NCBI GenBank assembly: GCA_017889545.1
Contig: JAGFZV010000007.1
Span: 1 to 64,000, forward strand
Direction of reading: 5' to 3'
DNA: 64,000 nucleotides
Source: Bacillota bacterium
GTDB lineage: Bacteria; Bacillota; Negativicutes; CTSoil-072
Positions 3,541 to 60,330 of this stretch are shown piece after piece. Position 1 is the stretch's first letter, and every line of letters starts with the position of its first letter. The notes under the pieces are model-generated. The model was not told the DNA's origin. It was given only the letters and a program-made list of their open reading frames with translations, and did not search any database. The position numbers and the translations under genes are program-made.

Positions 3541-3545
3541 TAGGC

Positions 3546-3672: not shown

Positions 3673-3693
3673 ATTTACTTTACTATTGGCTTC

Positions 3694-4941: not shown

Positions 4942-4991
4942 ACTGTCTCAAAAGCGTCTGGATGCCATAGCGTCCAGACGCCTAAAATACT

Positions 4992-5687: not shown

Positions 5688-5705
5688 ATTTCTTTTTACA
5701 AGAAT

Positions 5706-5837
5706 TTAAAAAACGAAAGAAAAAATCATCACCGCTAAAATCGCACCGGCAACCGACCCGCCGATAAGCAGCGCTGTACGATTCAGTTTGTTCATGTCTT
5801 CCCTATGATATTGGTGTTTCCCTTTTGCCTTTGCCAC
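5706..5837 (-). CDS. small single-TM protein (43 aa, GTG start)
   Basis: not in the ORF track; GGAGGG RBS then GTG; translation VAKAKGKHQYHREDMNKLNRTALLIGGSVAGAILAVMIFSFVF. Confidence 0.5.
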   Translation of the reverse strand: MAKAKGKHQYHREDMNKLNRTALLIGGSVAGAILAVMIFSFVF

Positions 5838-5887
5838 ACCATATCCCTCCAGATACAAATTCTTCGGTACTAGGGGACATTACCTCA

Positions 5888-6382: not shown

Positions 6383-6501
6383 AAATTACCCTCCTAACAG
6401 AATCGTTTTTGATACAAATGGGATCCGCTTTATTCACTTTCCACAATAATAAATATTACCCAATAGGTCCTCAAAATCCTTCTTTTTACAAATATTTATC
6501 T

Positions 6502-8274
6502 TCATTGGCTATGGTACAAACGGTAATAAAGTCCTCTATGAAGCAATAATTCCTCATGAGTTCCCTGTTCCACAATTTTGCCTTGATGAAGCACAATGAT
6601 CTTTCCGGCCTTCTGAATCGTTGACAATCGATGTGCAATCACAAGCATTGTTCTTTCCCGCCCGGCCTTGTCAAGAGCATCTTGAACCAGCACTTCCGTT
6701 TCACTATCAATACTCGAAGTGGCTTCATCCAGTACCAGGACGTTGGAACGGCAAGCCAACACTCTGGCCAAAGATACCAATTGCCGTTGCCCTGCCGACA
6801 GCATGCTGCCCCGATATCCGACTGAGGTATCATAACCATGAGACAGTTTCATTACAAAATCGTGGACATTGGCCGTCTTGCCCGCCGCCAAAATCACATC
6901 ATGAGTTATCGTTTCATCAAACATGCTGATATTTTCCGCTATCGTTCCTTTAAATAAATGAACGTCTTGAAAGACAACGCCAATTTTACGCCTTAAAGTT
7001 TCGAGTGGTATCTCTCGGATATTAACTCCATCCAAGAAAATATCGCCTTTTTGCGGTTCATAAAAACGCAGTAATAAGCCAATTAAAGTAGTCTTGCCGG
7101 ATCCGGACAATCCAACAATGCCAATAAACTGACCGGCGGAAATATCCAAAGAAACTCCCTGCAGGACCCAATTCTCCTCTTCATAAGCAAACCAGACATC
7201 CTTAAATTGAATATGCCCCAAAAATTCACAGTCCAGACTCTTGTTTAGAGGTTCTTCCGGCGGCCGCTCAGCCGCCAGCATATCATATACCCGCTCAGCA
7301 GCTGCCAGAGCGGATTGCAGGAGATTGTATTTCTCAGCCAAATCTTTGATCGGCCAAAAAAACTTTTCCACATACCGCAAAAATGCAATGACAACACCGA
7401 TCTCTACGTCCCCTGCCTGAACTTGCCAGCCGCCATGCCAAAGGACTATAACGACAGCCAACATATAGATGACATCCACCAATGGCCGAAAAACGGCAAA
7501 GGTCCGCATTTCCCGCAACCCGGCAGCTAAATATTCCTTGCTGACTATGTGAAACTCTTCTTCACTGCGCTGAAAACGGGAGAACGCTTTGATGATAGCC
7601 ACTCCGGTCATACTCTCTTGCAAGAAGGTATTCACATTGGCTGTCTTCTCCCGGACAGCCCGGTATGCCAAACGGGCATATTTCTGGTAGAGCATAGTAA
7701 TCAGGAACATGAGCGGCATGACAAGGAACGAAATCAATGCCAATCGCCAATTAATATACAGCATTACTACAATAATGCCCAACAAAACCAAGAAATCACT
7801 GGCAAAAGCCACTAATACATCGGTATACAGATCCCGGATCGCATCCGTGTCATTGGTCACTCTCGTTACCATCCGCCCGACCGGCTGCATTTCCAGATCA
7901 GCATACCGCTGATACATGATATATCGAAAAACTTTTTGGCGGACATTGTGAATAATTCGCTGCCCGATATGCTGCAAAATGATGTTTTCGGCAAAGGATA
8001 ATACGATACTGGCGATGATCGTCCAGCCATAAATAGTTGCAGTACGAATTAACCCATCTGCATCACCGACTGCAATTTGTTCGTCAATCGCTATTTTCAG
8101 CAAATAGGGGCGGGATAATTCCGCCACCGCACCCAACAGCATAACAAAAACAGCTACTGCCATTAACCCGCGGAAATCATGGGAAAACGACCACATAATG
8201 CGAAGCACCTTGCTGTCTAACGGTCGATTTTTCTCAGCCACATCATAGTCCCGTCCACGATAGATCATCGGCAT
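6502..8274 (-). CDS. ABC exporter half-transporter (TMD-NBD), canonical NBD motifs
   Basis: GLSGSGKTTL, LSAGQRQLVSLAR, VLVLDEATSSID, IAHRLSTI. Confidence 0.93.
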   Translation of the reverse strand: MPMIYRGRDYDVAEKNRPLDSKVLRIMWSFSHDFRGLMAVAVFVMLLGAVAELSRPYLLKIAIDEQIAVGDADGLIRTATIYGWTIIASIVLSFAENIILQHIGQRIIHNVRQKVFRYIMYQRYADLEMQPVGRMVTRVTNDTDAIRDLYTDVLVAFASDFLVLLGIIVVMLYINWRLALISFLVMPLMFLITMLYQKYARLAYRAVREKTANVNTFLQESMTGVAIIKAFSRFQRSEEEFHIVSKEYLAAGLREMRTFAVFRPLVDVIYMLAVVIVLWHGGWQVQAGDVEIGVVIAFLRYVEKFFWPIKDLAEKYNLLQSALAAAERVYDMLAAERPPEEPLNKSLDCEFLGHIQFKDVWFAYEEENWVLQGVSLDISAGQFIGIVGLSGSGKTTLIGLLLRFYEPQKGDIFLDGVNIREIPLETLRRKIGVVFQDVHLFKGTIAENISMFDETITHDVILAAGKTANVHDFVMKLSHGYDTSVGYRGSMLSAGQRQLVSLARVLACRSNVLVLDEATSSIDSETEVLVQDALDKAGRERTMLVIAHRLSTIQKAGKIIVLHQGKIVEQGTHEELLLHRGLYYRLYHSQ

Positions 8275-15690: not shown

Positions 15691-16067
15691 TTTACGCAGA
15701 CTGTCCTGCGGCGGGGACCGTCAAATTCTCCAAGATAGATGCCTTGCCACGTTCCCAAAAACAGCCGGTAATTTTCAATCGGAATAAATACGGATGATCC
15801 CAACAAGGAAGCTTGAATATGAGCCCGGGAATTCCCTTCTGAATGGCGATAAGCTAAACGGGGAACCATTTCTTCCAGCCCAGCGATGATGTCTTTCACT
15901 ACATCCGGATCAGCATTTTCATTGATAGTGACCCCGGCTGTCGTATGCGGCACAAAGACTTGACACAGACCATCCTTAACCGAACTGGCCGCCACGGCGT
16001 CTTTTACAGCAGCAGTTATATCCACCATACCGATTTTTGGCGTAGACACATAGAACTTTTCGATCAT
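15672..16067 (-). CDS. YjbQ family protein (secondary thiamine-phosphate synthase type)
   Basis: VFVPHTTAGVTINENADPDVVKDI, HSEGNSRAHIQASLLGSSVFIPI, GTWQGIYLGEFDGPRRRTV; start chosen at MIEKFYV. Confidence 0.88.
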   Translation of the reverse strand: MIEKFYVSTPKIGMVDITAAVKDAVAASSVKDGLCQVFVPHTTAGVTINENADPDVVKDIIAGLEEMVPRLAYRHSEGNSRAHIQASLLGSSVFIPIENYRLFLGTWQGIYLGEFDGPRRRTVCVNCGGAL

Positions 16068-16129
16068 ATCCCTCACCGCCTTCCTGTTAAAATATTTCAA
16101 CAAGGTAAAACAAAAATCCTACCTTGCTC

Positions 16130-42618: not shown

Positions 42619-45069
42619 TCAATAAATTGGAATTCTTGTAAGAGCCCCTACTCGCTTAAGCCCATTTTTAAAACATTCGCTTTTTGCACTATTCAATAAA
42701 ATATCGCGTAATATCTCCCAATATTCAAAACCTACATCTTTTGAGATTCCTGAACAAATACTAAATGCCAATTCTTCCTCAAACTCGACCCATTTATCAC
42801 TTAATATTACTTGAGTTCTAGCCGAATTTAAATCCAAATCTCTTTTTCCGCATATATCTATAACCAGTAACATTGGAAATGGCCAAGATAATTTTACTTG
42901 GTTCTTTTGCAACCTCCATGATGGCGTAACTATGCTAGCTGGCACTTCAACGCCATGCAATGAAAGCTTTGCTTTGGATTCAGCTAAGGATCTTGTATTT
43001 GAACTTTCCTCAATTTCCCCATCATCATTGATTGTTATGGATGTTGACTTTAATTCAAGTTCATTATCCTTTATGCTTATATGTTTGTCTAAATGGTAGG
43101 TTTCCCCTTCGATATCAATGTGCTTTGATGGCATATCCACCGTTTTAACTGGCATATTGCGCATTTCTAATATCGCAACAATTGCTGACCCAACAAAACC
43201 CGCAGATCTCTCATCAAGCTTTATCTCAATCTCTCGAATATTTTCATGCTCATCCCAAGAGTAATTTTTGAGAGACTCCGCAATATTTTTCTGAAAGCTG
43301 TTCTCATTCCATAATTGGGTTATATGTTCAGTCTTTATCAAAATTTTCAAAGGAGGATTTGGTATTACCGTCTCTACCGCTTTAATAAATTGTTCATCTG
43401 ACATGTTTTCCCATGGGTTATTTTTTTTTCGCAGAATTAGTCTTGTGCTGGTGCCAGGTATTTTGCGATTTCCTTGCTTTATCCAAAAAATACTCTCCTG
43501 GCCTTCAACAATTATATTAAGCGGCGCACTAGATTCATGAGGACCATAAACTCGGCGAGTATCGACTATAAGAGTATCGGATATCATAAAGCACGACAAG
43601 ATACCAATACCGAATCTCGATGTTGGAGTGAAATCGGCATTACTCTCCGATTTTAGATCATAAAATTCGCTCGATACATAGAAAGAAGAACCTATTCTTG
43701 TATAATAGTTATCGACAATGTGTTGATCCATTCCACTCCCATTATCAATAACTTCGAGAACGTATTCGCTGTTTTCCTTAAAATACCGGACTTCTATCTC
43801 AGGAGAGTATGTTGTATCCCATTTTTTCTCAAGTGCTTTTCTCAGCAAGCATGCATCGATGGAATTCTGCAATAATTCCCGAAGTGCCACTTCTGGATTG
43901 CCATATAGCTTAGTCCCCATTAGCAAATCGATAACTTGAGCTTTGCTCAGGTTAAATTGGGTTTTTCTATATAAATACTGCGGATCTCCATTTATATTTT
44001 TCTTTGTTTCAATCTTTTCTCTATTAACTCTAAGAGGTAAATCAATAAGCATTTTTCGTTCTCGAATGCGCGGCTCCTTATTGAGCGTATACAGAACATT
44101 ATTGCATATACTCAACTCATTATCTATCAAATCACAGAATGAATGAATTGACGCTTCTATTGCCGGATGCACGCATTTCGCTTGAAAACAAATCTCTCTA
44201 TTGTTTATTACCCACGCGTCAATTGACCGATGTTTATTCCACTCCTTGATTGACACAGGGTGTTTAACAGTCAAATTGGAAAATAGTACTGAAGGAGTTC
44301 TCTTTGCATCAAAATCCAAAATATCCGCCAACCTTAATACAATCGCTATAAACGGCAAACATGCAAAAGTTTCAGGCCCACATAGCAAATTATTATCCAA
44401 GTTGAGCAAAAAAACGGCATCTTCATTGTGGCTAAAACATATTTCTGCAAATTCAACTGTCAAATCTACATCTCTGTATTTTATCTTACCGTTCCAATCG
44501 TTTTCAATAATCTCTCTTGCTCTTAACGCATGAGTATTTCTAATATATTCGGAAATCAAATATGCCTTAAGCGTCTCGGAAGTTGCGTTTTCCCCCTCGG
44601 TGTCTAATACTTCTATTTGTTTAAGTTGCTCTGGTCTAGCAGCACAATGCCGCTTAAACCTTGTGTATTGTTCTACTGCCTCTTCATCAACAAATGCCGG
44701 CGTCTTATCCCAAATTCTTCTCCAATTTGCTACATGCTCTCCGCTAGGCGCCATACCAATATCATGAAAAAACGCACTTAAAATCATCAACATCAATTCT
44801 GGCACTGTCAAACTATCAATGCAATCTTCAGGAAGAAGCGCTTCCATCAAGCCTAATACTCTGAACAGGTGCTCCCCATCGTGTAAAGTGAACTCTCCCA
44901 TATGTTGGAGAACAATTTTAGTCCTATGATACGCATAATAAGTGGCATCATCAACCAATGACAATGCGTGCGAACCTGACGGATCACTGCCACATTTTTC
45001 TTTTAACTTCAAATATATTTTGCTTTTTGCAAGGCGTACTTGAGTTTCGGCATGCCAGTCGTCGTTCAT
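42619..45069 (-). CDS. HD-domain and Hsp90/GHKL ATPase fusion protein
   Basis: N-terminal HD motifs (HDGEHLFRV, AFFHDIGMAPSGEH, RLADILDFDAKRTPS); HtpG-like VALRELLQNSIDAC, VIDNGSGMD, SRFGIGILSCFMISD; start taken at MNDDWHAET. Confidence 0.85.
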   Translation of the reverse strand: MNDDWHAETQVRLAKSKIYLKLKEKCGSDPSGSHALSLVDDATYYAYHRTKIVLQHMGEFTLHDGEHLFRVLGLMEALLPEDCIDSLTVPELMLMILSAFFHDIGMAPSGEHVANWRRIWDKTPAFVDEEAVEQYTRFKRHCAARPEQLKQIEVLDTEGENATSETLKAYLISEYIRNTHALRAREIIENDWNGKIKYRDVDLTVEFAEICFSHNEDAVFLLNLDNNLLCGPETFACLPFIAIVLRLADILDFDAKRTPSVLFSNLTVKHPVSIKEWNKHRSIDAWVINNREICFQAKCVHPAIEASIHSFCDLIDNELSICNNVLYTLNKEPRIRERKMLIDLPLRVNREKIETKKNINGDPQYLYRKTQFNLSKAQVIDLLMGTKLYGNPEVALRELLQNSIDACLLRKALEKKWDTTYSPEIEVRYFKENSEYVLEVIDNGSGMDQHIVDNYYTRIGSSFYVSSEFYDLKSESNADFTPTSRFGIGILSCFMISDTLIVDTRRVYGPHESSAPLNIIVEGQESIFWIKQGNRKIPGTSTRLILRKKNNPWENMSDEQFIKAVETVIPNPPLKILIKTEHITQLWNENSFQKNIAESLKNYSWDEHENIREIEIKLDERSAGFVGSAIVAILEMRNMPVKTVDMPSKHIDIEGETYHLDKHISIKDNELELKSTSITINDDGEIEESSNTRSLAESKAKLSLHGVEVPASIVTPSWRLQKNQVKLSWPFPMLLVIDICGKRDLDLNSARTQVILSDKWVEFEEELAFSICSGISKDVGFEYWEILRDILLNSAKSECFKNGLKRVGALTRIPIY

Positions 45070-45164
45070 TTTATACCTTCTTTGCGTTTCAAATGCGATT
45101 TTCGCTTGAAATCGCACGTTGAAAACTAATTATTTTTATTGCAATGACAGTAAAAATGATCAAA

Positions 45165-45435
45165 TTTTTACTGCAAAGGAATCCTGAAATATCTTTTCTA
45201 GCACACCTTTCCATTGGGGAGAAACTACTAAATTTTCTTGCCAATTATCATCTAAACTTTTGATACTACGGCCTTTATCCTGTATCTCTCAGTCACTAAA
45301 AAACCTCTCAAGCTCTCCGAAATTATTTCAAGTTTCTCATCACTTCTCTTCTGCCAGCATGTTGTTGCGATTAGGATTCGTCTTTTAGGTAGCGCACAGA
45401 ATGTGTCGATACTAAAAGAGCTAATTTCCGAGCTC
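45165..45435 (-). pseudogene. decayed ORF fragment upstream of the HD-Hsp90 gene
   Basis: minus strand reads SIDTFCALPKRRILIATTCWQKRSDEKLEIISESLRGFLVTERYRIKAVVSK, then after a one-base shift SLDDNWQENLVVSPQWKGVLEKIFQDSFAVKI*. Confidence 0.45.
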
Positions 45436-45436
45436 T

Positions 45437-45631
45437 TTATGAGCTTATTATGAGCTTTTTCCCTGGATAGCCCGGCACCACTTTCGTTCTTCGCCCAAAG
45501 CCATCCAGTTCGACTGATCCCAAGTGTTTCAGTTGCTCAAGGTCGCACCGAAGTGTTGGATCGGAAAAGTTGTCGTTCATTCCGGCCATAATCTCGCTTA
45601 ATGAAATGGTCCTTGGCGACAGTACCCGCAA
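45437..45631 (-). pseudogene. fragment of a helix-turn-helix C-terminus (Fic-associated type)
   Basis: LSEIMAGMNDNFSDPTLRCDLEQLKHLGSVELDGFGRRTKV resembles a winged helix at the end of Fic-like proteins; no upstream domain in frame. Confidence 0.35.
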
Positions 45632-45949
45632 GTTTCTGCGCTGCGCGGCGTCAAATTATGTTTCACCCGAATCGGTGGGTATAACCATTGATCAGGAAGC
45701 GTACGCCCATTGCGACTGCCTTCTCCAGAAATTTCGGTTCCGGATCCCACCTATAGAATTCAGCACTCTCTAATTCTTCGGCCTGTTTTCCACTATCTGC
45801 TGCAAGAAGACCCGCATCCGAAGCAAAGGATGGATAAAATGACGTTAGCGGCGCAATGATGAAACCTACAGTACGATGACGCGTTCCCGGAAACGAATGT
45901 ATTGAGGCTTGGGACAGCGGCGGTGGCGATAACGAGAGCGGCCCGAGAA

Positions 45950-46046
45950 CCGGGAGCGGAGAGACGCGCAGTGGATAGCAGCCCGGTCGCTGGAACGCGG
46001 ATGGCGGCAGTTGTAATATAATTGTTTTGTCGCAATACTTCTGTGC
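45950..46046. repeat. GC-rich direct repeat, copy B (downstream of the RT gene)
   Basis: core CCGGGAGCGGAGAGACGCGCAGTGGATAGCAGCCCGGTCGCTGGAACGCGGATGGCGGCAGT, then CTTCTGTGC; about 70% identical to copy A. Confidence 0.6.
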
Positions 46047-46174
46047 AATTCCTTTTCGTTGTGATGAAATGCAGGAATCAGGGACAAAGACCTTAACGAG
46101 GTCTTTTATAGCGAAAAATATTTTATACTATAGAAACGATTGTTACACAAAAAGGCATAAAAGTTCTATTGCCC

Positions 46175-47716
46175 TTATTTTTTAGACCAAAGAATGAGTA
46201 GTTCATCTAGTTTGTCTTCCTTAGATACCTGACTGAAAAAGAAGCGTTTCTCCTCTCTGGGCAATTTTGAGCATGCAACCAGGAAGGCTCTTTGCGTCCA
46301 ACGATCCATTCCCCGATAATGCTCTTTCAATTCACGCAACCAATCTGCTGCATCATACTTGAAAGCCGCAATTATGGTTTCTCTTTTTAAGTTTGAAGGG
46401 TTCGCTTGATAATTTCTCAGTATTTTTTCGAAGTGATTAAGTTCGAGCTTTCTATTAAATAAAGAATAGATTGAAAGCTGATAGTATTCATTTGCTTGAA
46501 TTATTGGATCGTCAAGTAAGTTTAGTATTTTTTCCCCCAATATAGGCCAGTCCGATGCACTGAAATTGCTTACTGAAACAAAATATTGACATATATCATT
46601 TAAAGCAGGCATTAATTTGTTTATATTATCGACACAATAATTTACCGCGCCAGGGTGACCAACTTGGGATAGCCTTCGGATAAACCATCTAAGGCGAGTA
46701 TAATCTGGTTCTGTTTGTGATATATAGTCATTAAATATTTTTGTTATTGATTCATCATTAAAAGAGTTAAGTTCCTCTGCTGAAAGCTGACTCAAATAGA
46801 TAATGCCGTAAGGATTGCCACCTGAGTGCTTTCGAATTATTTTTAACAGATTGGTCTCTAAATCGTTAATGGGTCGATCTTCCAACATTTCATTACAGTA
46901 TTTCTGAAAGTTCTCTTTATCGAGAATTTTCGTTTTATGTCTTTGCAGCATTAGACGTTGCTGTTTGTCCAAAATATCCGCTATTGTCAAAATGTTAATT
47001 TTTGCCTCGGTTTCCGAGTTGCAAAAAACGATAATATCGTCAACGAAGCGACAGAATTCAATTCCTCGAGTTACTAAGCTATTGTCAATCGGCTTTAAAG
47101 AAATTTCTGCTAACAAATGTGCGGAATGTGGTCCAACTGGGATACCTCTAGACGTTTTAGCCGTTATACTTTCCGATAATGCAATGATCCATTTGATTAC
47201 TTGATTTGGCAAACCACACTCAGCAAGTTGGTTCTCTAAAGTATGGTGATAAATCTGGTTGTAAAAGTCAGAGATATCTAGGACGAGCGCGTATTCAAAA
47301 GACTTGGATTTTTCAAAGCAATTTTTCCAAAATTCATTCCACGAAAAAATCTTATCATAGAAGTTACCACCGGGATCTGGTGCAAATCTATAACTAAATA
47401 CTCTGTTTTCCTCCACTGGTCTTCGTTTGCTCTCAATTTCAACTCCAAATTGGTACATTATCGCAGCTAAGAAAATGCTATCTAATGGATCTAGCTGTGT
47501 GGCTACTCGGTATGATAAGTCATCTTTAGGAACGATAAAGCGCCTAGCTGATCCTGGATTAACCTGACTAAGATCAAGGTCGGACAGAAAATTAATAGCC
47601 TCTTCACCTTGGCCTACTATAGCCTCAAATTCTATTGGTATTGGAAATAAATCAGAATCACCAATAGTTGTTAAATGATTTAAAGCCCATTTGATGGATA
47701 CAGCATCAATTTTCAT
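46175..47716 (-). CDS. reverse transcriptase of the UG/Abi (defense-associated) type
   Basis: LDISDFYNQIYHH (motif A), SRGIPVGPHSAHLLAEISLKPID (motif B), RFVDDIIVFC (motif C), HKTKIL (motif D), long helical C-terminal region; start at MKIDAVSIKWALNHL. Confidence 0.85.
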   Translation of the reverse strand: MKIDAVSIKWALNHLTTIGDSDLFPIPIEFEAIVGQGEEAINFLSDLDLSQVNPGSARRFIVPKDDLSYRVATQLDPLDSIFLAAIMYQFGVEIESKRRPVEENRVFSYRFAPDPGGNFYDKIFSWNEFWKNCFEKSKSFEYALVLDISDFYNQIYHHTLENQLAECGLPNQVIKWIIALSESITAKTSRGIPVGPHSAHLLAEISLKPIDNSLVTRGIEFCRFVDDIIVFCNSETEAKINILTIADILDKQQRLMLQRHKTKILDKENFQKYCNEMLEDRPINDLETNLLKIIRKHSGGNPYGIIYLSQLSAEELNSFNDESITKIFNDYISQTEPDYTRLRWFIRRLSQVGHPGAVNYCVDNINKLMPALNDICQYFVSVSNFSASDWPILGEKILNLLDDPIIQANEYYQLSIYSLFNRKLELNHFEKILRNYQANPSNLKRETIIAAFKYDAADWLRELKEHYRGMDRWTQRAFLVACSKLPREEKRFFFSQVSKEDKLDELLILWSKK

Positions 47717-47827
47717 ACAATCCCTCTTCCAATATTTAATTCGCATGTTATTATATCGGTTATTCATCTTGAAAGACTTTTTTGCCTGGATCTTAATGTA
47801 ACAACTGGAAGTTTGATGAATATAATT

Positions 47828-47910
47828 CCGCCGGAAGCGGAAAGCGGCGCAACGAATCGCAGCCCAGCCCGCAGGGACGCTGTTGGCGGCAGTAACTTTA
47901 TCTTCTGTGC
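47828..47910. repeat. GC-rich direct repeat, copy A (upstream of the RT gene)
   Basis: core CCGGAAGCGGAAAGCGGCGCAACGAATCGCAGCCCAGCCCGCAGGGACGCTGTTGGCGGCAGT, then CTTCTGTGC; same orientation as copy B. Confidence 0.6.
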
Positions 47911-48049
47911 GAAACAGCACCTCTTATATAGCAGGTGGCCTTGCCAATGCCTTGCTGCACCATGCTACTCAGAATTTCCGACGTTCTTGATTTCCCCAAT
48001 GACAACAGCTCCATGCCCTGTGCCACTGTGACCCTCCCTATTCCAAGAC

Positions 48050-48394
48050 AAACGCCAAAATTTTATTTTGTGACTCCACTGCTTTCTCATCTGCGTCCGT
48101 TTTTTTGTGTCCGGCTTCCCTGAGAGCGCCGCATTTTTATGATAAAACGTTACCTACACGAACATCCCGGTTTCAACAATGTCCGATTTTTGCAAACCGG
48201 CTTCCAAACGCAACCGAGTCAGCTTCTAGGTCCCACGCCCTCATTGATTCCAGCTTCCTTAAAAATGCGGGCAATGACCTTATTGCACACTTCCGAGCGA
48301 GCATCGAGAACCTCATTCAGCGTAATGCCCCTTGAAAATGCGCCCGGCAAAGTGATCCCAATCCAGGAATCATAAACGGCAACTTTAATGTCCT
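48050..48394 (-). pseudogene. remnant of an AlbA/RecG-like (HATPase_c_4) ATP-binding regulator C-terminus
   Basis: minus strand: DIKVAVYDSWIGITLPGAFSRGITLNEVLDARSEVCNKVIARIFKEAGINEGVG, frameshift, TRLRLEAGLQKSDIVETGMFV*VTFYHKNAALSGKPDTKK. Confidence 0.6.
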
Positions 48395-48444
48395 AACTGC
48401 GAAAACAGGCCACCCGCCAATTCTTTATGGTCGATTGTTCATCC

Positions 48445-50304
48445 TCAACTGCTCATACGTCCAGCTATACATTCAATCTCAGCATCTGACAACCGCGCTA
48501 AGCTCCAACCTTGAGCAAACTTTGCCGTCTCAGATTTTGGCAACTGTGCTTCCGAAAGATCACGAATACGCACCCGCGCTGGCATAGCAGCACCTTCGCC
48601 AACAAAGATAGCCTCTTGTTGAGCTAGGTTTGGCAAAACTTTCGTCATTCCCGATAATCCGTCCGGCAAGAAACGGGAAACATGCTGTTGATCAGCCGCA
48701 TTCGTCAAACGCAAAATCAGCCATGTTCCACATTGCGCGATAACTGTACTTTCGATATCGGCAGGTCGTTGGCTTACCAACATTAGTCCAATCCCATACT
48801 TACGGCCCTCGCGAGCAATTCTCCTGATAGAATGTTGGGCTGCGGAGTATTCCGCTTCGCCACGATCAGGAACATATCTATGGGCCTCTTCGCATACTAA
48901 AACAACCGGATCGCGTTTGCGCTCTTCATCCGTTTGATAAACTTTGTATTGAAAGAGTAATCGAGCCAGAACTGCTGATAGAGGACCGGCAACTTCATTG
49001 GGCAAGCCGGAAATATCTAGTATCCGAAGGTCTTTTTTCATCTCCGTTTCCGCATTAATATCTCCAACCAATTGACCAATGACTTTCCCAAGAGAAAGGC
49101 TTTGCTGCGTCCATTCTTCCATTAAAAATTTGATGCGAGGATCACGACGTAGTACAGACAGTTTATCTAAGACCGACTTAAAAGTTTTGGCAAATTCGCC
49201 ATCAGCAATTTTTGATAAAGTCGTTCCCTGAACACGAGCTGCTTGCAAATACACGATATGATTATAAAACTCATTCAAACTAAAAGGACGTGGTTTATCA
49301 CGATCAAATTGCAACAATTGTTCTTCACTAATTCCTTCGACTGGTCTCGGAGCATCAATTTCCTTTCCGTCTGTTGGCGCTGGGCTTCCGTATGCTGTAG
49401 GTGAGGGTGCAACAAATCCAGCCGCTACCATCCGTGCATACGTTATGGCTTTATAAACAATGTTGTTCTGTGAAGTCGCTTCCTGCTCCGTTTTACCGAT
49501 CAATAGCATACGGAATTCATCAGCCGACATCAACCAATAGGGAAGAATGATCGGAGCTCCATTAGTTGTCTCTGTACCCAAGGGGTTATAAGCCCGATAT
49601 ATTTTAGCATGATCTCCAAAAGCATGACCATATTCTCCATGTGGATCAATAATCACGACCCGGGGATGACATTCGGTATCAGATTTCGCCTTATGTTCTA
49701 TCATGCTGTGAAGAAGTGCTGCCACAGCACCAGACTTGCCCGATCCTGTTGATCCCAAAACAGCACAGTGCATTCCAAACATTTTATCAATGTTGGCATG
49801 ACAATTCGTATTATCTGCTCCAACATAGCTCGCAAAAGGAACCAATGGATTGTAATCACCTAAGCGTTGTTTTCCCTCTGCCGCACTATAAAGTTCGGTT
49901 GTTTCTGGACGAGTAAGCAAATAGACACCTTGTCGCGGCAAAGGATATGTCGTAACACCACGGGAAAAATGCAATTTTTGTTCCGCCGAATTCCAAGCCC
50001 CTTCAGCAAACAACTCTACCTCCATCATTCGCTGATCTGCTTCGGGCGGTATCGGTTTGCCCATTTCAGTAAGTTCTTCGGATCTCATGCGTAATAAAGT
50101 GACAAAGCCGAAGACCAACCGACGTCCAAAATGAATCTTTACCATGCTACCCATTTGTCCAATCGGATACACGCGCCCTTCATAGGTTCTCGTTAACTCG
50201 GTCACGTCACCTGATAATTCTATCCGAATGGATGTGCCGGAAACTTCGACTAGATGACCAATCTTCAAGTCATTGACAAGATCAAAAGTATTCACAATAC
50301 ACAC
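48445..50304 (-). CDS. HerA-like hexameric ATPase/translocase
   Basis: LGSTGSGKSGAVAALLHSMIE, VVLVCEEAHRYVP, RRIAREGRKYGIGLMLVSQRPADIESTVIAQCGTW. Confidence 0.93.
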   Translation of the reverse strand: MCIVNTFDLVNDLKIGHLVEVSGTSIRIELSGDVTELTRTYEGRVYPIGQMGSMVKIHFGRRLVFGFVTLLRMRSEELTEMGKPIPPEADQRMMEVELFAEGAWNSAEQKLHFSRGVTTYPLPRQGVYLLTRPETTELYSAAEGKQRLGDYNPLVPFASYVGADNTNCHANIDKMFGMHCAVLGSTGSGKSGAVAALLHSMIEHKAKSDTECHPRVVIIDPHGEYGHAFGDHAKIYRAYNPLGTETTNGAPIILPYWLMSADEFRMLLIGKTEQEATSQNNIVYKAITYARMVAAGFVAPSPTAYGSPAPTDGKEIDAPRPVEGISEEQLLQFDRDKPRPFSLNEFYNHIVYLQAARVQGTTLSKIADGEFAKTFKSVLDKLSVLRRDPRIKFLMEEWTQQSLSLGKVIGQLVGDINAETEMKKDLRILDISGLPNEVAGPLSAVLARLLFQYKVYQTDEERKRDPVVLVCEEAHRYVPDRGEAEYSAAQHSIRRIAREGRKYGIGLMLVSQRPADIESTVIAQCGTWLILRLTNAADQQHVSRFLPDGLSGMTKVLPNLAQQEAIFVGEGAAMPARVRIRDLSEAQLPKSETAKFAQGWSLARLSDAEIECIAGRMSS

Positions 50305-51455
50305 CCCTCTGCTCCGCAGTTCAAGATTTTTGTTACTCCCTCAAATGTCCACCAGTTATAAGCCATATCGTCAGTAGGCGAACAGTATGGTCCCTGATCA
50401 CCTACATACAAGCCCTTCTCAGAAATGATATAAAGCCGCTTACCCCAAGGGCTTTTTCTCCATTCATTCAATTTATTATTCAATCCCTTGGAAAAAGCTA
50501 AAACGGTCGACTTATTCTCTGAACTTCTCATGGCAAATTCAATCTCTTGATTGATATGTTCATCACCGAAGCTGTAGCCGCAAATAGAAAGTACATTCTC
50601 AGCTTTTTTGTTTAGTGTTCGACGAAATAAATCAAAGTTTGCCGCAAATGGGTCACGTTGTGTCGCCAAATACTTCGTCGCTTGAGGGTAAATGAGAACT
50701 CTTCCGGCTTTTTCAGGATAAAGGTCGCCACTGCGAACCCTTAATATCCGGTCTTCCTCGCCAAGGTACCAGTCAATTGAGCCATGGAGCTTGACTATAT
50801 GTGCCCGGAAATTTTCATCCGGCTCTTTGGCGCCATATCGATAATTCCGATAGGCAACCGCACCCCCAGAAAATCCATCCCAATAGCTACAGCAGCATAA
50901 AGCCAGTGCATCTTCAAGGAGCGTATCATAATTTGTTGTAAATAAGTTTACCGCTCCTCTCCTTTCTGCAATCCCAGCTTGATTACGATGAAATAGAGCA
51001 TTAATAAACGATTGATGGACATCAATTGTTACGATTGATTTTCCTTTTTCGCCAGCGGTTTCTGATGCTCCATCTTTTGCCGGCTTATATCCCCAGCGAA
51101 TTGTTTCAGAAATCAATTTCAAAATTTTATCATGGGCGTCATTCATATCCGAAAGATTAAATTGTCCAGAACCAATCTTCACCGCCTTGTCTTTTCCTCG
51201 CTCTGCAATAGCAATGTAATCTCCTAAATGGCTAAGAATATGCTCGATATGAGCTTCTGAAGATAACTCAGTTTTTATTGCGTCGAATAGCGTTTTTACC
51301 GGGGAATCAGCTACCGCATAAATTCTTTTAGTCAAAGAATCAATTAAAGGGATTCCCGCGCTAAAGCTAATCCCAGCACCAAATAACCATGACTGATGGC
51401 TAATCGCCAACAACTCGTCAATCTGTTTTAAACAATCACTCGCTGAAGAATCCAA
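50292..51455 (-). CDS. SIR2 family NAD-binding protein
   Basis: FGAGISFSAGIP, LFTTNYDTLLEDAL, VKLHGSIDWYLG, SICGYSFGDEHIN; overlaps herA-like gene by 13 bp. Confidence 0.92.
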   Translation of the reverse strand: MDSSASDCLKQIDELLAISHQSWLFGAGISFSAGIPLIDSLTKRIYAVADSPVKTLFDAIKTELSSEAHIEHILSHLGDYIAIAERGKDKAVKIGSGQFNLSDMNDAHDKILKLISETIRWGYKPAKDGASETAGEKGKSIVTIDVHQSFINALFHRNQAGIAERRGAVNLFTTNYDTLLEDALALCCCSYWDGFSGGAVAYRNYRYGAKEPDENFRAHIVKLHGSIDWYLGEEDRILRVRSGDLYPEKAGRVLIYPQATKYLATQRDPFAANFDLFRRTLNKKAENVLSICGYSFGDEHINQEIEFAMRSSENKSTVLAFSKGLNNKLNEWRKSPWGKRLYIISEKGLYVGDQGPYCSPTDDMAYNWWTFEGVTKILNCGAEGCVL

Positions 51456-51564
51456 GCCTAATCGCCCCCACTAAAGAATTCTTTTCCTTACAGTCTTCCA
51501 ATTTCAGTACCAGGATATTTCTTATATCCTCAATATGCAACCACGTCCTTCTCTTTATTCTCCC

Positions 51565-54549
51565 CTATCCCCGCAACACTTCATAAATCGTCGACGCATC
51601 CTTAAAGTTCACGCCCAGAGCCGCAAAATGAGCCTTGCCGCAATCCACTTTCTTATTCTCGCTCTCACGACGTTTGTCTCGGTCCAAGGTACTCTTGGTT
51701 TCCCTGACCAGATAAAGTTTCTGGTCATCTTCCACCACTACGGCCCAATCAGGATTGTAGTCTCCCAATGGGGTCGCCACCTTGAACCAACGCGGCAATT
51801 TACAGAAGAACTTCACTTTTTCGTCGGAATCCAGTAGTTTGGCTACTTCTTCCTCAATGCCGGATTCGTAGGAAATATAGGTATAGGGAGTCCGGTCGTC
51901 ATGGCTCTGTACTTCATAAAGCCGATTCAGATACTCTTCGACTTCCTCTGTCTCGAACAACCGCATTTCATAGTTTTGCCCCTTAATCGGTTCATACTTT
52001 ATGCCGTCGATAATCAGTTCATGCAGGGCGCGGTTGATCATTTTGGCCACTTCAGTCATAAACGACTGTGGATTGACAGTAAAATCTTTCAGCCGACCTG
52101 ACTCTATCAAAATTCGGACCAGTGTGCCTCGAGTGAGTTCCGTTTCCCGTTGTAAAAAACCTAAAATGTCAGGCACTGGTTGATGATTATTGACAATATA
52201 CGTTCGGTTGCTGGTGATTTTGCCGCCTTCAACGCCAGCCTCCCGAATCTCCAAATCCCGTTTTGTGATCTCGATTTGCACAGCCCTGACTTCGGCCATA
52301 CTTTTGATCTTGTTCACAGCCCGTTCCACCAGGGTATCTGTCTTGAACTCCACAAAGTACCGCGTGCGTTGGCTGATCCGATCCCACAGCGCTTTAAAAT
52401 CCGGGTTCAGTTCTACCCGCTTGTTGTACCCCACCGGTTGCCGTTTTCGGGCATCCTTGACGAATTCACACGGCAGGAATTTCTTCAATCTTGCGACCAC
52501 AGCCTCTTCCATTCCCGAAAATGCATATGGAAGCTGCAAGGAAAAATCGTCCCGCTCCGACCAAAAAGCCTGCGTAAAATCGCCATTAGAATCAATATAT
52601 CCCTGCTTTTCGATATGCTGCCAAAGCTCTGTCGATTCATCCTGCGACAGATAGCGTGACCCGTCAGCATGGAGCAACGGAGTGAAAGCAATTCGCGGCA
52701 CGCGCCCGAACTTGAATCCGCCGCTGGGGTCGATCGCCGCTTCGATGTCGGATTGCAGCCCCCGGGCAAAGTTTTCAAAAGACTCATTGGCTATGACGGT
52801 CAACCGATTGATCTGCTCATCATATACCCGATCCCCGTCCTGATTCACCGGCAGCCGCAGGCCCCGGCCAATCGTTTGGCGGCGTTCGCGGTCGGTACCC
52901 ATTTCCCGCAAAGTGCAGATCTGAAACACATTGGGATTGTCCCAACCTTCCCGCAGCGCCGAATGACTGAAAATAAAGCGCAAAGGTACGTCATTGGACA
53001 GAAGGCGTTCCTTGTCCCGCATGATCAGTTCATACGTCTCGTCGTCTTTGGCAGTTCTGCCGCTGGTATCCAGCAGTTCCACGACTTTGCCCTTCTTCTT
53101 GTCGGACGAAAAATACCCGTTGTGGACTTCCTCTGCGGAATAGGGCAGCAGTCCTTTATACATCGGCTTTTGCCGGATTTTCTCATACGCTTCTTCGAAC
53201 CACAGAGCGACTTTCCCTTTTTGCCCATTGCCGACATCGTCATAGACCCGATAACTCTTGACATGGTCGATAAAAAACAGCGACAATACCTTTATTCCCT
53301 TGTCCCTCAGTTTCTTCTCCTTGGCGAAATGCGCTTCCACCGTCTGCTCGATCTGACTTTTCAGCCGTTCGTCATTCATGCCGCCCGACTCTTGCAAGAG
53401 CTCAACGACAACGCCGTTTTGAAACTCCACATATTCATTGCCAGGCTCGGCATTGATGTTCGTCACCAGGTATCCGTCATAATCCTCACGCTTCGTCTGG
53501 CTGGCCAAATCCGTTCCGTGTTTGATTTTAACCTGCTTTTCGCGGGTTCCATTGGGTGTATCATCGAAAATCGTCACTTTGGCTTGCGGAGTTTTGGACG
53601 TTTTGGGCCAATATCCCACTGCATCCAGCCGGACAAATGTCTGGTTGAAGTCCTGTGTGTCGCTGGCATCCACCACTTCGATCTGCTTAACCAGGCGCAA
53701 ATCAAATGCCCTGACAGGATCCAGCTGATAGAGCAGATGATAGGGATTGGCATGGGTAGCCGAATACCGCAGGCAGAACAGTGGGTTCAGATTGCGGATG
53801 GCCTTCTGCGACTTGTCAGTATTGTCTACGCTCTGCGGTTCATCAATGATTATAATGGGGCGGGTGGCCTGAATATATTCGATCGGGCGGCGTCCCGACA
53901 TTTTGTCCTGCTCCTGGTGAATGACATTAAGCCGTTTCTTCTGCTCCTCAGTAAGGTTGGCATACTCAACGTTCTCCCCGGCATCCTTCTGAAACGCCTG
54001 GATATTGATCACCATGATCTGTACTTCGTTATTCACGGCAAACTGGCGCACGCGGCTCAAATCTTTGGACTGGTAGACAAAATCATCGAACGAAACATTG
54101 TCGTAAAGCCCTTTGAAATGTTCCCGCATCAATTGAATCGAAGATGTCACGCCTTCACGAATAGCCACCGAAGGCACCACGATAATGAATTTTTTCAGAC
54201 CGTAAAGTTGGTTCAATTCAAAAATCGTCCGCAGATAGACATAGGTTTTGCCGGTACCGGTCTCCATCTCGACGGAAAAGTTGGGAAAATCATACGGGCA
54301 TCCTTCACCCAGTTCCCGGGAATGGGGTATCTGGTTGCGCGACTGAATAGCCTGCAAATTGGCCAGTAATTGATCCGGTGGTAGGAGATCACGGTTGCCA
54401 ATCCCCAGTTCGTTGAACATGCCTCCGTCAATTTTGCCAAAATCCGTCGAAAACAATGTTGCTTGTGCAGACAACCCTTCGAACAAATCTGTCACGCTCT
54501 GAATCGCTTCGAGCTGGTAGTCAAGGGTGGCGTCAAACTTCAGTTTCAT
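51565..54549 (-). CDS. type III restriction endonuclease, Res subunit
   Basis: METGTGKTYVYL, IIIDEPQSVD, TIGRGLRLPV helicase motifs; C-terminal YNPDWAVVVEDDQKLYLVRETKST (PD-(D/E)xK). Confidence 0.93.
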   Translation of the reverse strand: MKLKFDATLDYQLEAIQSVTDLFEGLSAQATLFSTDFGKIDGGMFNELGIGNRDLLPPDQLLANLQAIQSRNQIPHSRELGEGCPYDFPNFSVEMETGTGKTYVYLRTIFELNQLYGLKKFIIVVPSVAIREGVTSSIQLMREHFKGLYDNVSFDDFVYQSKDLSRVRQFAVNNEVQIMVINIQAFQKDAGENVEYANLTEEQKKRLNVIHQEQDKMSGRRPIEYIQATRPIIIIDEPQSVDNTDKSQKAIRNLNPLFCLRYSATHANPYHLLYQLDPVRAFDLRLVKQIEVVDASDTQDFNQTFVRLDAVGYWPKTSKTPQAKVTIFDDTPNGTREKQVKIKHGTDLASQTKREDYDGYLVTNINAEPGNEYVEFQNGVVVELLQESGGMNDERLKSQIEQTVEAHFAKEKKLRDKGIKVLSLFFIDHVKSYRVYDDVGNGQKGKVALWFEEAYEKIRQKPMYKGLLPYSAEEVHNGYFSSDKKKGKVVELLDTSGRTAKDDETYELIMRDKERLLSNDVPLRFIFSHSALREGWDNPNVFQICTLREMGTDRERRQTIGRGLRLPVNQDGDRVYDEQINRLTVIANESFENFARGLQSDIEAAIDPSGGFKFGRVPRIAFTPLLHADGSRYLSQDESTELWQHIEKQGYIDSNGDFTQAFWSERDDFSLQLPYAFSGMEEAVVARLKKFLPCEFVKDARKRQPVGYNKRVELNPDFKALWDRISQRTRYFVEFKTDTLVERAVNKIKSMAEVRAVQIEITKRDLEIREAGVEGGKITSNRTYIVNNHQPVPDILGFLQRETELTRGTLVRILIESGRLKDFTVNPQSFMTEVAKMINRALHELIIDGIKYEPIKGQNYEMRLFETEEVEEYLNRLYEVQSHDDRTPYTYISYESGIEEEVAKLLDSDEKVKFFCKLPRWFKVATPLGDYNPDWAVVVEDDQKLYLVRETKSTLDRDKRRESENKKVDCGKAHFAALGVNFKDASTIYEVLRG

Positions 54550-55406
54550 TCGCTGCCCTCCTGTCCGCTATCATCACTCAACATTTTTTTACGGGGCGCC
54601 GGGGGCAAAAAATTTTCTCCAGTCACCACATTGCGACCGGTTTTCTGCTCCAGTTCCAGTCGGGCTCGTTTGGCAATACGCCCACCGGTCTTCCCTGCTT
54701 GCTTGTTTTCATCCATCCCGCTGGCCTCCACGCTTTGGGCGATTTGTCGGGTGGACAGCTCGGCCAGCGCGGTGAAGATCAGCTCCGCCTCGCTCATATG
54801 GTCCCGCAGATTTTGCGTCTTCAATCCCTTGATCTCTTTGTGTTTTTTGACTGATACCCCGGTCCATTCCTGATGAATGATGTTGGTCAGAATCGCGTAT
54901 TCCTCTTCTCCGGCTATCTCATGGTCCCGCCAATAGTCGGTCAACTTGTTCCGGGTTTCCTGGCCCATCATCCGCTGCTGAATCCATTTTTCGCTGCGTC
55001 CGTGCTGCTGCCAGTACTCGCGGGCCCGGTCGAGCGAACGGGCCGGATCGGCCATGTCCTGCATGCGTTCATAGCCAACCTTGGCCAGCCATTGTTTGAA
55101 CGGTTCCGCCTTGGGTGACGGGATGGACTGGATAATTCGCAATAACCCTTGAACATTCGACGCATCGGTCAGTCGCATTTTTCCGTCCGGCGCTTCCATT
55201 TTCAACTGTCGACAAATTGTCGACAGTTCAAGTCCGTCTTCACTTTTTACCCGCAGTTTCATCTTGAACCAGTAATCACGTGGATTAACACTATCGGTCA
55301 ACGCGCCTACCACGTCCACGACCGAAAAATACCAACTCGCATCCTTTTCGTCGAAATGACGACGAATCTTATAGTTTTCAAACAACGCCAGCTCATTATC
55401 CTTCAT
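54546..55406 (-). CDS. BRO-N domain protein embedded in the type III R-M operon
   Basis: KIRRHFDEKDASWYFSVVDVVGALTDSVNPRDYWFKMKLR, SIPSPKAEPFKQWLAKVGYERM; 4-bp ATGA overlap with res. Confidence 0.85.
   Translation of the reverse strand: MKDNELALFENYKIRRHFDEKDASWYFSVVDVVGALTDSVNPRDYWFKMKLRVKSEDGLELSTICRQLKMEAPDGKMRLTDASNVQGLLRIIQSIPSPKAEPFKQWLAKVGYERMQDMADPARSLDRAREYWQQHGRSEKWIQQRMMGQETRNKLTDYWRDHEIAGEEEYAILTNIIHQEWTGVSVKKHKEIKGLKTQNLRDHMSEAELIFTALAELSTRQIAQSVEASGMDENKQAGKTGGRIAKRARLELEQKTGRNVVTGENFLPPAPRKKMLSDDSGQEGSE
55204..55228. repeat. 25-bp palindrome inside the BRO-N gene
   Basis: AACTGTCGACAA-A-TTGTCGACAGTT, perfect 12-bp arms. Confidence 0.85.
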
Positions 55407-55418
55407 CGTATCCCCTCC

Positions 55419-57455
55419 CTACACCGTCTTGAACACAATCTGATTGTGTTTCTCTTTTTGCAGATTGCGGGCAGCGAAGGTCTGAACGGCGTTGGACTTC
55501 AACTGATCATTGCCGCCAAAAGCGGAGTCGAGGCAGATGAATTGCATGGGCTCGTCTTCGGCTATCTGGTCGATCAATTCTTTGGTGACTTTTTCTGCCA
55601 GGCAGATCAATAAGGCTCCGTCAGCAATGGAGAAGACCGGCACTCCTGCGTATTCTTTCACTTTGGCTTTTTCTGTCGGTTGGAACCCTGCTTTCAGGAG
55701 AATTTCGAACAGCAGCGCTTCCTGCGAAGACGCTTGATTGATATGGTCGACGTGGTCCGTCAACTGCAGCGCCAATTGTTCTACCGTGACAGAGGCATCG
55801 ATGGGCCGCCACTGTTTAAAGTTGGACTGATCCAGTTTCAACACCCGGAATCCCCGGTCCTGGTCCTTGTCCCCCTCCAGGTCGAGTTTGCCTTCCTGTT
55901 CAGCATTCAGCTTTTTGATCACCCTGCGAATTCGTTCTTTGCCAATATCGGCAATGGTATGATAGCCGGCCTTGAAGGCTTCACTGTCTTCAGCACAGGG
56001 CTCAGGTAATTGAACCAGGATGAATTTGCGGTGTCCAGCATCTTGTTTATTTAGATCAAAAACTGCGTGGGCCGTAGTCGCAGAACCGGCGAAGAAGTCG
56101 AGGATAATGTCATCGGATAATGTTCTCGCTATCTCCAAAAGATATTTAATGAGTCTCGATGGTTTAGCAAAATCAAAAATTATATTGAGGTCTTTTAACT
56201 CTGCTGAACTCTGCCGGTTTTCAAATTTTTCGATAAAATTTGACGGAACCATTCCTTTCTCTTTTTGATCTTCAAGCCAAACTTTATTGTATATATTCCA
56301 CTTTGACTGTTCATTATTTTGGTTTAATAAAGCAGAAGTTGTTGTTTGTTTAAATACTATATTTCCAGCTGTAAGCTCTTTAACATAAGATGAAAAAACC
56401 CATTTCCACACACCATCTTCTGAAGTTGGCGCAACTTGTACTCCTTGCGCCACTAATTCCGGAAAATTAACTCCAGGTGGGATCACAAATGAGCCATCTG
56501 GGCACTCAATCCAGTATCTTTGATTGGGTCTATGGTCTAAACTGGCTTTATATAATCGTTCTTCACCATAAATTTCACCTGCTCGTAGGCCTTCCGTTTC
56601 AATTTTAGTATAATATCGATCAATTTGCTCCTGAAGTATCTCTGACCGAAAAGCGTCTGTTCTTTCTTTGTTTTTTGCATAAACACAAATATAATCAATA
56701 TTCGGAGTGAAAAAACGTCCTTTTGCTCCTCCAGATTTCATCATTCGAGAAATTATCCCTATAAAATTTTCTTCCCCAAAAACTTCATCACACAGCTTTT
56801 TGAGGTTTGTCACTTCATTATCATCAATGCTAATAAAGATAACCCCATCGTCCCGGAGCAGGTTCCGCGCCAGATACAGTCTCGGATACATCATGTTCAG
56901 CCACTTGGTATGAAAGCGGCCTTCGTTCGCAGTATTGGTGGAAAACTTCTTGCCTCTGCTGTCCACCAGTCCAGCATATTCCAGATAGGTCTGCAGGTCT
57001 TCAGTGTAATTATCCGGATAGATGAACTCCTTGCCGGTGTTGTAAGGCGGGTCGATATAGATCATCTTGACTTTGCCATAGTAGCTTTTCTGCAGAAGTT
57101 TCAACACTTCCAGATTATCGCCCTCGATGAACAGGTGCTCGGTCGTATCAAATTTCACTGACTCTTCGCGGCAAGGTTTCAAGGTGGCGCGGCTGGGCGT
57201 CTGGATCAGCCGCAGGGCGTCTTTTTTCCCAGGCCAGTCCATGCCGTATCGTTCGCGCCGGGCCTCGAACAAATCCGTGAACGTCCCGAGTTCGGCTTGG
57301 AGTTTGCCAAAGTCAACGGACTCCACCGTTTCCCCGGCGTCGTTCACAGTTTCGGTAAAGACCGTGGGAAACAGTTCTTTGAGACGAGCCCGCTGCTCGG
57401 CAGCGATGTCCAGTGACGTGCCGTTCATTTTTTTAGGTTGTTCGTTTGCCATCAC
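55419..57455 (-). CDS. type III DNA adenine methyltransferase, Mod subunit
   Basis: [20 protein letters not shown] (DPPY), [17 protein letters not shown] (FxGxG), [19 protein letters not shown]. Confidence 0.95.
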
Positions 57456-57480
57456 ACATTCTCCCTTGTCTTTTTAATTG

Positions 57481-60330
57481 TTATAACAGTTCCCAACGAA
57501 CCGTGAAAATCGTTTTCTCTTCGACCGTCTGTTTCAGCCGATCTTCGACGGTGTCCAACAGACGATCTTTTTGCATTTCGATCTGTTTGGCGGCCTCGTC
57601 GTATTCTTTCCAGGCCCCATCCCGCTTCTTATCGAGGTCGCGCAGCTTTTTTTGCAGCGCCAATTTCTCAGGTAAACTGCCGGCAGACCGCGCCTCTTTC
57701 TTAAACAGCGCAATCTGGTCGTCATATTCTTTTAGATCTGCTTTCAGTCCCTTGCGCCGGTCTTCGGCCCAATAATTCAGCTTGTCGATTTCTTCGTCAA
57801 ACCAAGCCGTTCTTTTCTGTGCAATATCCTCCAAAATAGTCTTTCGCTGCTTATTGGCATCTCGTTTCAGTCGCTCGGGGACCGCCACCCGTTCCTTACC
57901 GACGACACGGGCCGGTATATCGAACAATCGCCGAACCGCCGCGACAGGCAATCGGTCTCCGGCATCGGTGATCGCGCAAAGAATCAAATGATCCTGGGCG
58001 TCAGATCCATTGATGGAAAGCAAGCCAAGAGTCAACGTGCCGACTTTTCCCCGGTACGGATCCAGACTCTGTGCAGTCTGCGCCCAGGCAGAATAGTCGA
58101 AGATCATACTGGAAGATGACATCGCGCGTTGTTTGGCTTGGGCTATCACCTGTTGCGCCAGCGGGTGGCCGATTCGGTAGCGCCGGGCATCTTCTTTGAT
58201 GCGAGACAAGGTATATGCGCCGGCAGGAATAGAAATTCCCGTCTTTTTGATTGGCGTACGCAGGTGGAAACTGAAATTTTCATCATCAAATTCCGCCCTG
58301 TCCGCCAGTTCATATCGAGTCAGTCGCCAGAGCATTGTGTCAAACTTATTCAAGTATTCCCGACTGTTGGAAAGATTGACGCGGAGACGGTCATGCACGT
58401 CCGCATCGAAGTTTTCCAGCAATTTTTTCCGTGTATCCCCCAATGTCGTCGCGACCTGGGTTTCCATCTCGGCCTGCAATAGCAAAAATTCATTATCTAT
58501 TTCGGCAACAGTCCGGCAGTTTTGATAAATGGCCGCAATTCTTTTTTCAAACTCCACGCCGGATTCAATGACGCCCAATACTTCATCGCTGGCTCCGAAC
58601 ACTCCGGAAAACAGCTTGAACTTTTGATCCAGCAGCTCAAACACGCGTTGGTCAGCCGCATTTTTTCGATTGATAAAATTGATGACCACTACATCATGTT
58701 GTTGGCCGTAACGGTGGCAACGACCGATTCGCTGCTCGATACGCTGCGGGTTCCACGGCAAGTCATAGTTGACAATCATGGAGCAAAATTGCAGGTTGAT
58801 TCCTTCGGCCCCTGCTTCGGTCGCGATCATGATTTTGGCATGAAGTTTAAAATGGTCTACCAGCGCAGCCCGCATATCCGCCGACTTCGATCCGGTCACA
58901 CGGTCGGTCCCTTTATGTTTAGCAACCCACTCCGTATATATTGCTTTGGACAACGGGTCGCTGTTGGTTCCATTGAACAAAACGATTTGCCCCTGATAGC
59001 CATTTTGTGCCAGAAGCGAAATGAGATAGTTTTGGGTTCGCCGCGATTCGGTGAAGATCAGGGCCTTCTCTGTCGCTCCCAACTCCTTGGCCTTGGCAAA
59101 GCCATGGAATAAGGCGCTGACCAGGGCCTGTCCTTTGGCGTTCTCGCTAATGCTCACCGCCAGATCCCGAAATAGTTCCAGCTCCGATATTTCTGCCTCA
59201 ATCGCCGCGATATCGATTGCCTGGATTGGGTCGGGTGATTGCTCCTCATCCCACTCTTCAGCATCGGCTTCCGCCGCTTCGAAATCCTGCGCCAGATCAG
59301 TCAACGCGTTTTGCGCTTGTGTCGCTTTGACTTGCTTCTTCAATCGGTTGGCCAGAGACTCCAAGGCTCCGGCGATGGCGAACGTGGAGGATGCAAGTAG
59401 TTTTCGCAGAATCAATGTGATCAATTGCCGCTGCGAATTAGGGAGCGCAAATAGTTGCTTCCTCTGTAGGTATTCGGTGACCATGTCATACAGGGCCGTT
59501 TCATCATCGGACGGGTAAAAATCTTCGGTAAGCGGAATGCGGTTGGTATAACGGATATATTCCAGCACCTGCCGCCGCAAGGTACGGTGACAAATCGGCG
59601 CCAAGCGGGCTTTTAATTCATCAAATGTCGTTTCCGATGTCAGGCGTGCATATTGCGCCTTGTAGCTTTTCTCGTCGCCAAAAGCATATTCGTCAATGAC
59701 ACTGGCCAGTCCGTAGAGTTCCATCAATGAATTCTGCAACGGCGTGGCCGTCAGGAGAAGTTTCTGCGTATTGCCTAACGCGGCTTTGATAGCCTTGGCG
59801 ATCTTGTTGTCCGACTTGTACACATTCCGCAGCCGGTGCGCCTCGTCAATCACTGCCAAATCCCAGGGCAATGCCAATATTTTGTCGCTGTTCTTTGCCG
59901 CAAATTGATAAGAGCAGATGATGAGAGCATCTTGAACCCATGGATTCTTCCGGCCATCTTTTTGGAGTTGCCGGAAATTCTTCGCTTCCAGAATGTACGA
60001 CGGAAGATAGAACTTCTCTGACATTTCCATCGCCCATTGCTTGCGAAGATTGGCCGGAGTGATAATCAAAATGTGTCGTTTCCGTTCCGACCATTTTTGT
60101 GCAATCACCAGCCCTGCCTCGATCGTCTTGCCCAAACCCACTTCGTCCGCAAGAATACAGCCTTTTGACAAAGGCGACCGGAACGCAAATAAAGCCGCAT
60201 CCAATTGGTGCGGATTGAGATCGACTTGTGCATCGGCCAGGGCCGGCGCCAATTTCTCCGAATCGCTAAGGGAATACCGACGACTCAATTCATGAGCAAA
60301 ATAGGTGGCTTGATACTCTGTCAGGCTCAA
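57481..60330 (-). CDS. SNF2-family helicase
   Basis: LADEVGLGKTIEAGLVI, VIDEAHRLRN, LLLTATPLQNSLMELYGL, ATEAGAEGINLQFCSMIVNYDLPWNPQRIEQRIGRCHRYGQ. Confidence 0.93.
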   Translation of the reverse strand: MSLTEYQATYFAHELSRRYSLSDSEKLAPALADAQVDLNPHQLDAALFAFRSPLSKGCILADEVGLGKTIEAGLVIAQKWSERKRHILIITPANLRKQWAMEMSEKFYLPSYILEAKNFRQLQKDGRKNPWVQDALIICSYQFAAKNSDKILALPWDLAVIDEAHRLRNVYKSDNKIAKAIKAALGNTQKLLLTATPLQNSLMELYGLASVIDEYAFGDEKSYKAQYARLTSETTFDELKARLAPICHRTLRRQVLEYIRYTNRIPLTEDFYPSDDETALYDMVTEYLQRKQLFALPNSQRQLITLILRKLLASSTFAIAGALESLANRLKKQVKATQAQNALTDLAQDFEAAEADAEEWDEEQSPDPIQAIDIAAIEAEISELELFRDLAVSISENAKGQALVSALFHGFAKAKELGATEKALIFTESRRTQNYLISLLAQNGYQGQIVLFNGTNSDPLSKAIYTEWVAKHKGTDRVTGSKSADMRAALVDHFKLHAKIMIATEAGAEGINLQFCSMIVNYDLPWNPQRIEQRIGRCHRYGQQHDVVVINFINRKNAADQRVFELLDQKFKLFSGVFGASDEVLGVIESGVEFEKRIAAIYQNCRTVAEIDNEFLLLQAEMETQVATTLGDTRKKLLENFDADVHDRLRVNLSNSREYLNKFDTMLWRLTRYELADRAEFDDENFSFHLRTPIKKTGISIPAGAYTLSRIKEDARRYRIGHPLAQQVIAQAKQRAMSSSSMIFDYSAWAQTAQSLDPYRGKVGTLTLGLLSINGSDAQDHLILCAITDAGDRLPVAAVRRLFDIPARVVGKERVAVPERLKRDANKQRKTILEDIAQKRTAWFDEEIDKLNYWAEDRRKGLKADLKEYDDQIALFKKEARSAGSLPEKLALQKKLRDLDKKRDGAWKEYDEAAKQIEMQKDRLLDTVEDRLKQTVEEKTIFTVRWELL

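Follow-up and report, generated by a model that had tools for sequence, protein, structure and literature searches.

Class 1 reverse transcriptases (RTs) of the UG/Abi group have alpha-repeat domains and need no nucleic-acid template for DNA synthesis (PMC13174585). Template-independent DNA synthesis has been described for the Abi enzymes (PMC11077055) and for DRT4 (PMC13314766), and in some cases class 1 synthesis is primed from protein (PMC13174585, PMC11077055, and PMC13314766). Several DRT families use an adjacent non-coding RNA (ncRNA) (PMC12632851 and PMC12483538). For DRT8, phage resistance has been reported at the family level, with a mechanism that is yet to be resolved (PMC13314766 and PMC13213688). 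Here, we describe a DRT8-family RT gene that is bracketed by two direct repeats, and we weigh how these repeats came to be there.

A DRT8-family reverse transcriptase in a defense island

The 64-kb stretch of DNA that was analyzed (the window) encodes on its minus strand an intact RT of 513 aa (46175-47716), which runs from an ATG at 47716 to a stop codon at 46175. A longer frame of 581 aa, whose GTG start lies just outside the upstream repeat and which reads through that repeat (repeat B, below), probably does not mark the true start, because the N-termini of orthologs begin at the ATG. The RT motifs DISDFY and FVDD are present, Pfam RVT_1 matches the protein (E = 2.4e-19), and the catalytic residues Asp147, Asp226, and Asp227 are invariant across the window RT and 18 aligned relatives. 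The first-pass annotation had called the gene a UG/Abi-type RT; this was correct and can now be made specific. The best PADLOC profile is Drt8, which matches over its full length (3-491/493; E = 6.7e-159) and leaves the second-best family, RT_UG21 (E = 1.1e-52), far behind. All 18 aligned relatives match Drt8 as well. By these profile matches, the window RT belongs to the DRT8 family, a known antiphage RT type, and it is ordinary for that family: it is encoded by a single gene within a defense island and has a helical C-terminus. It departs from other DRT8 loci at two points, namely the flanking direct repeats, which are absent from most relatives examined, and residue 297, which is a histidine here and a tyrosine in nearly all DRT8 relatives. 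With this histidine, priming or activity could differ from that of the relatives.

An AlphaFold2 model of the RT (mean pLDDT 91.3 and pTM 0.90) shows an RT domain and, from residue 285 onward, a C-terminal array made up entirely of helices, in agreement with the long helical C-terminus proposed earlier. The best Foldseek matches to the model are DRT6, DRT4/UG15, Abi-P2, AbiA, and AbiK, whereas the ncRNA-using DRT9 ranks lower. The nearest solved structures by sequence profile are Abi-P2 (7r08) and UG15. The predicted protein thus shares with class 1 enzymes an alpha-helical repeat domain fused to the RT domain, intact catalytic aspartates, and the nearest fold, but structural alignment to class 1 structures yields only ~13-17% identity.

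By analogy, we infer that the window RT works like the class 1 UG/Abi enzymes. The protein would then assemble into an oligomer, as can be expected from other class 1 enzymes, and would synthesize DNA with no nucleic-acid template, using one of its own side chains as the primer. Phage infection may turn this DNA-making activity into growth arrest.

The surrounding region (42619-60030) is a dense defense island with all genes on one strand. Its members include an SNF2 helicase (DrmD-like), a type III methyltransferase, a BRO-N protein (PDC-S13), a type III restriction subunit, a SIR2 and HerA pair, DRT8 itself, and an HD-CE and HSP90-like ATPase protein.

Direct repeats A and B around the RT gene

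The first-pass annotation had placed two GC-rich repeats in the same orientation on either side of the RT frame, and both are where it put them. The core of repeat A (45950-46011) lies 164-225 bp past the RT stop codon, and the GC-rich core of repeat B (47831-47893) lies 115-177 bp upstream of the start codon. The two cores are 76% identical over 63 bp with one gap, with an alignment score of 49 against a maximum of 29 in 500 shuffles. Sequence and alignment also place a CTTCTGTGC block in both copies, at unequal distances from the core: 26 bp past it in repeat A (46038-46046) and 8 bp past it in repeat B (47902-47910). With an identity of 76%, the copies have diverged too far to stem from a target duplication of recent date.

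To count copies, we relied on model searches, since neither copy leads to its partner in an ordinary BLAST of the genome. A two-sequence model of A and B (R1) returned two matches over the 3.27-Mb genome, both at the RT locus (E = 6.5e-31 and 7.8e-23), and the next match had an E value of only 0.4; blastn likewise found no third copy across the window. One of the two outcomes that the first-pass annotation had named as refuting its proposal, repeats scattered tens of times through the genome away from RTs, is therefore not seen. As a base rate, we scored 3,900 random pairs of 400-bp segments at equal spacing. A score of at least 40 was reached at three places only: the window RT locus, the locus of a Planctomycete RT relative, and one spot in L049. 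The bracketing of the RT by repeats is thus genuine, and chance would very seldom produce it.

Base composition changes at both repeats. The segment between them that holds the RT (46047-47830) has ~36% GC, and the profile steps to this value from ~48-50% in the adjoining DNA. Repeat B adjoins a decayed gene on the minus strand (47935-48440), which is broken by stops and frameshifts and once encoded an ATP-binding, RecG-C-terminal-like (HATPase_c_4) protein; its translation, read with X at stops, matches Pfam PF13749 (E = 1.3e-6). On the other side, a non-coding or decayed stretch of ~800 bp separates repeat A from the HD-CE gene (45118-45949) and contains no intact gene and no significant Pfam match in six-frame translation.

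Relatives of the RT and their flanks

Judging by its genes, the organism of the window is a bacterium. Drt8 is carried by 2 of 381 genomes in its class, the window genome and one other. In this other genome, the DRT8 locus (L025:5973-9081) has a SIR2-domain gene 142 bp downstream. Further relatives are scattered among an archaeon, a Planctomycete, Bacteroidota, Rhodobacteraceae, and Rhizobium plasmids. Sporadic occurrence within the class, together with relatives in distant taxa, points to horizontal spread of DRT8. No relative was found in viral contigs scanned with the RT, nor in a first genome scan with the single RT protein.

The closest relative found (65% identical) is in an ANME-1 archaeon MAG, GoMg1 (L027), where DRT8 sits between two attC-type sites (5862-5941 and 7562-7649; p ~0.02 and <0.02 against shuffles). 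A distant relative in Aidingimonas halophila (23%; L046) lies inside an array of four attC-type sites (2637-7648). All of these sites were detected by a home-made scan. The Planctomycete DRT8 (51%; L028) has a direct repeat of ~112 bp on both sides (5865-5975 and 7694-7805), which is unrelated to A and B. Read by eye, its copies contain promoter-like hexamers (TTGAAA/TTGACA, 17 bp, TAGACT/TAGGCT), and they precede DRT8 and the next gene, a nucleoside-deoxyribosyltransferase-like gene, respectively. From this layout, the Planctomycete repeat may be regulatory. The shared promoter- or leader-like repeat hints at a co-regulated two-gene system. We had also suspected a half attC downstream of the Planctomycete RT, but a plasmid search did not support it.

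Most relatives have no flanking direct repeat (L030-L037, L023, L025, and L097-L101), and, apart from the ANME-1, Aidingimonas, and Planctomycete loci, neither a direct repeat nor an attC was seen in relatives with enough flank. The window RT lies inside a named DRT family and its flank is not conserved, essentially the other outcome that the first-pass annotation had said would count against its proposal. The idea of an undescribed arrangement is thus weakly supported, since most relatives do without the repeats.

Origin of the repeats

Two readings account best for the bracketing: it is a trace of how the gene was acquired, or it is what remains of a dispersed repeat. On balance, we lean toward the former: a single-gene DRT8 system that was gained horizontally into the defense island, as an AT-rich insertion at a GC-rich intergenic repeat. 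We prefer this reading because the RT is AT-rich within DNA of ~48% GC and stands beside a pseudogene. Also consistent with it are the composition step at both repeats, the genome-unique repeat pair, and the sporadic occurrence of the gene, as well as other DRT8 genes that have a direct repeat of another kind on both sides (the Planctomycete) or sit at attC sites (ANME-1 and Aidingimonas). In such a scenario, an AT-rich segment with DRT8 would have entered the island by horizontal transfer and inserted at a GC-rich intergenic repeat, to leave one repeat copy on each side. The repeats would be traces of the insertion, either through recombination between repeat copies or through the arrival of a repeat together with the gene, and the enzyme would work independently of them. 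The cassette yielded no recombinase, and a search of plasmid DNA with either flank of the RT gave no match. The first-pass annotation had offered mobile-element ends and a dispersed repeat as two of its readings, and both still stand; the low-GC insert and the second repeat-bracketed relative favor the former, and a weak reciprocal match to a class-wide repeat speaks for the latter.

That match raises the most serious alternative, that A and B are diverged copies of a repeat dispersed in the class, present on both sides of the RT by chance and unlinked to the RT or its arrival. When run over 381 class genomes, model R1 gave weak matches to a GC-rich intergenic repeat of ~290 bp, which was detected one to three times in each of several large class genomes (L102-L106; for example, L104:4789-5072 and 15783-16072) and no match in Rfam. 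A reciprocal model (R2), built from copies of the ~290-bp repeat alone, without A or B, ranked A first (E = 0.0082) and B second (E = 0.011) in the window, on one strand, with the next match at E = 1.5. The similarity is weak and collinear: A aligns along most of an ~80-bp module, scoring 42-52 with four of the five copies where shuffles reach at most ~27, and B aligns along part of it. We regard homology of A and B to this repeat as suggestive, and the R2 result is no stronger than that because A and B themselves had led to the ~290-bp repeat; as the best of 381 genomes, the match is of modest significance. The window copies are also strongly diverged and shorter, no other recognizable copy is present in the window genome, and base composition shifts at both A and B. 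Overall, we think a chance pair of dispersed copies unlikely, if worth keeping in mind. Two other candidates were discarded along the way. The four initial BLAST hits that repeat A gave in relatives from the class (L018-L021) were short and due to chance, and three of them fell within coding frames. An inverted pair of the dispersed repeat in L104 and L105 had suggested the ends of a transposon, but around it L104 and L105 share 98% identity across 14 kb, and thus a single chromosomal locus had been seen twice.

The remaining explanations give the repeats a function. They might serve for recombination in a site-specific cassette system, integron-like or other, with the RT as the excisable cassette. 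A single gene between two recombination-like repeats fits this idea, as do the position of each copy after the 3' end of a gene, like attC, the attC-type sites around the ANME-1 and Aidingimonas relatives, and the direct repeat in a similar position in the Planctomycete, although the latter resembles a promoter and leader before two genes. Yet A and B do not have attC features. The scan that was positive in the ANME-1 and Aidingimonas loci detected no attC-type site (RYYYAAC ... GTTRRRY with paired arms) in the window, A and B have no palindromic arms in common, and all matches of the genome to the integron integrase model TIGR02249 are below the cut-off (best, 97 of 265 bits). The latter is not decisive, since cassettes can exist without an integrase, but we consider excisable-cassette sites improbable here. 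Slightly less credible still is that the repeats are duplicated promoter or operator regions through which the RT is linked with a second gene. Both copies of the Planctomycete repeat shortly precede a gene start and have promoter-like hexamers, whereas in the window repeat B ends ~115 bp before the ATG with no promoter-like site on the RT strand, and repeat A is followed by the ~800 bp without an intact gene. We give the least credence to paired structured ncRNAs that would be partners of the RT in the manner of DRT2, DRT9, and DRT10, another reading put forward in the first-pass annotation. Conspicuous non-coding sequence flanks the RT gene on both sides, and dependence on an adjacent ncRNA is known from several DRT families, as noted above. 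Nevertheless, neither A nor B folds better than shuffled sequence (z of 0.77 to 1.29 on the RT strand, and 0.72 and -0.03 on the other strand), neither has an Rfam match, and the flanks of relatives at 65% to 41% identity have nothing in common with them, even at 65%. Moreover, by its predicted fold the RT groups with the enzymes that need no RNA template, with DRT9 a weaker fold match than class 1.

Our preferred reading, horizontal gain of a single DRT8 gene, concerns the window. A wider version would be that DRT8 genes travel as repeat-bracketed single-gene cassettes by several routes across domains, with the unrelated repeats of the window and the Planctomycete, and the attC sites of ANME-1 and Aidingimonas, as landing or excision sites. 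We hold this generalization to be doubtful and offer it as speculation.

For the DRT8 family, which lacks a known mechanism (PMC13314766 and PMC13213688), the conserved relatives and the confidently predicted class 1 fold make the hypothesis of template-independent synthesis easy to test. What the repeats offer is a clue to the movement of such genes, rather than evidence for a new system. The ANME-1 DRT8 between two attC-type sites would show, in a specific instance, that archaea can carry an antiphage gene in the form of an integron cassette.
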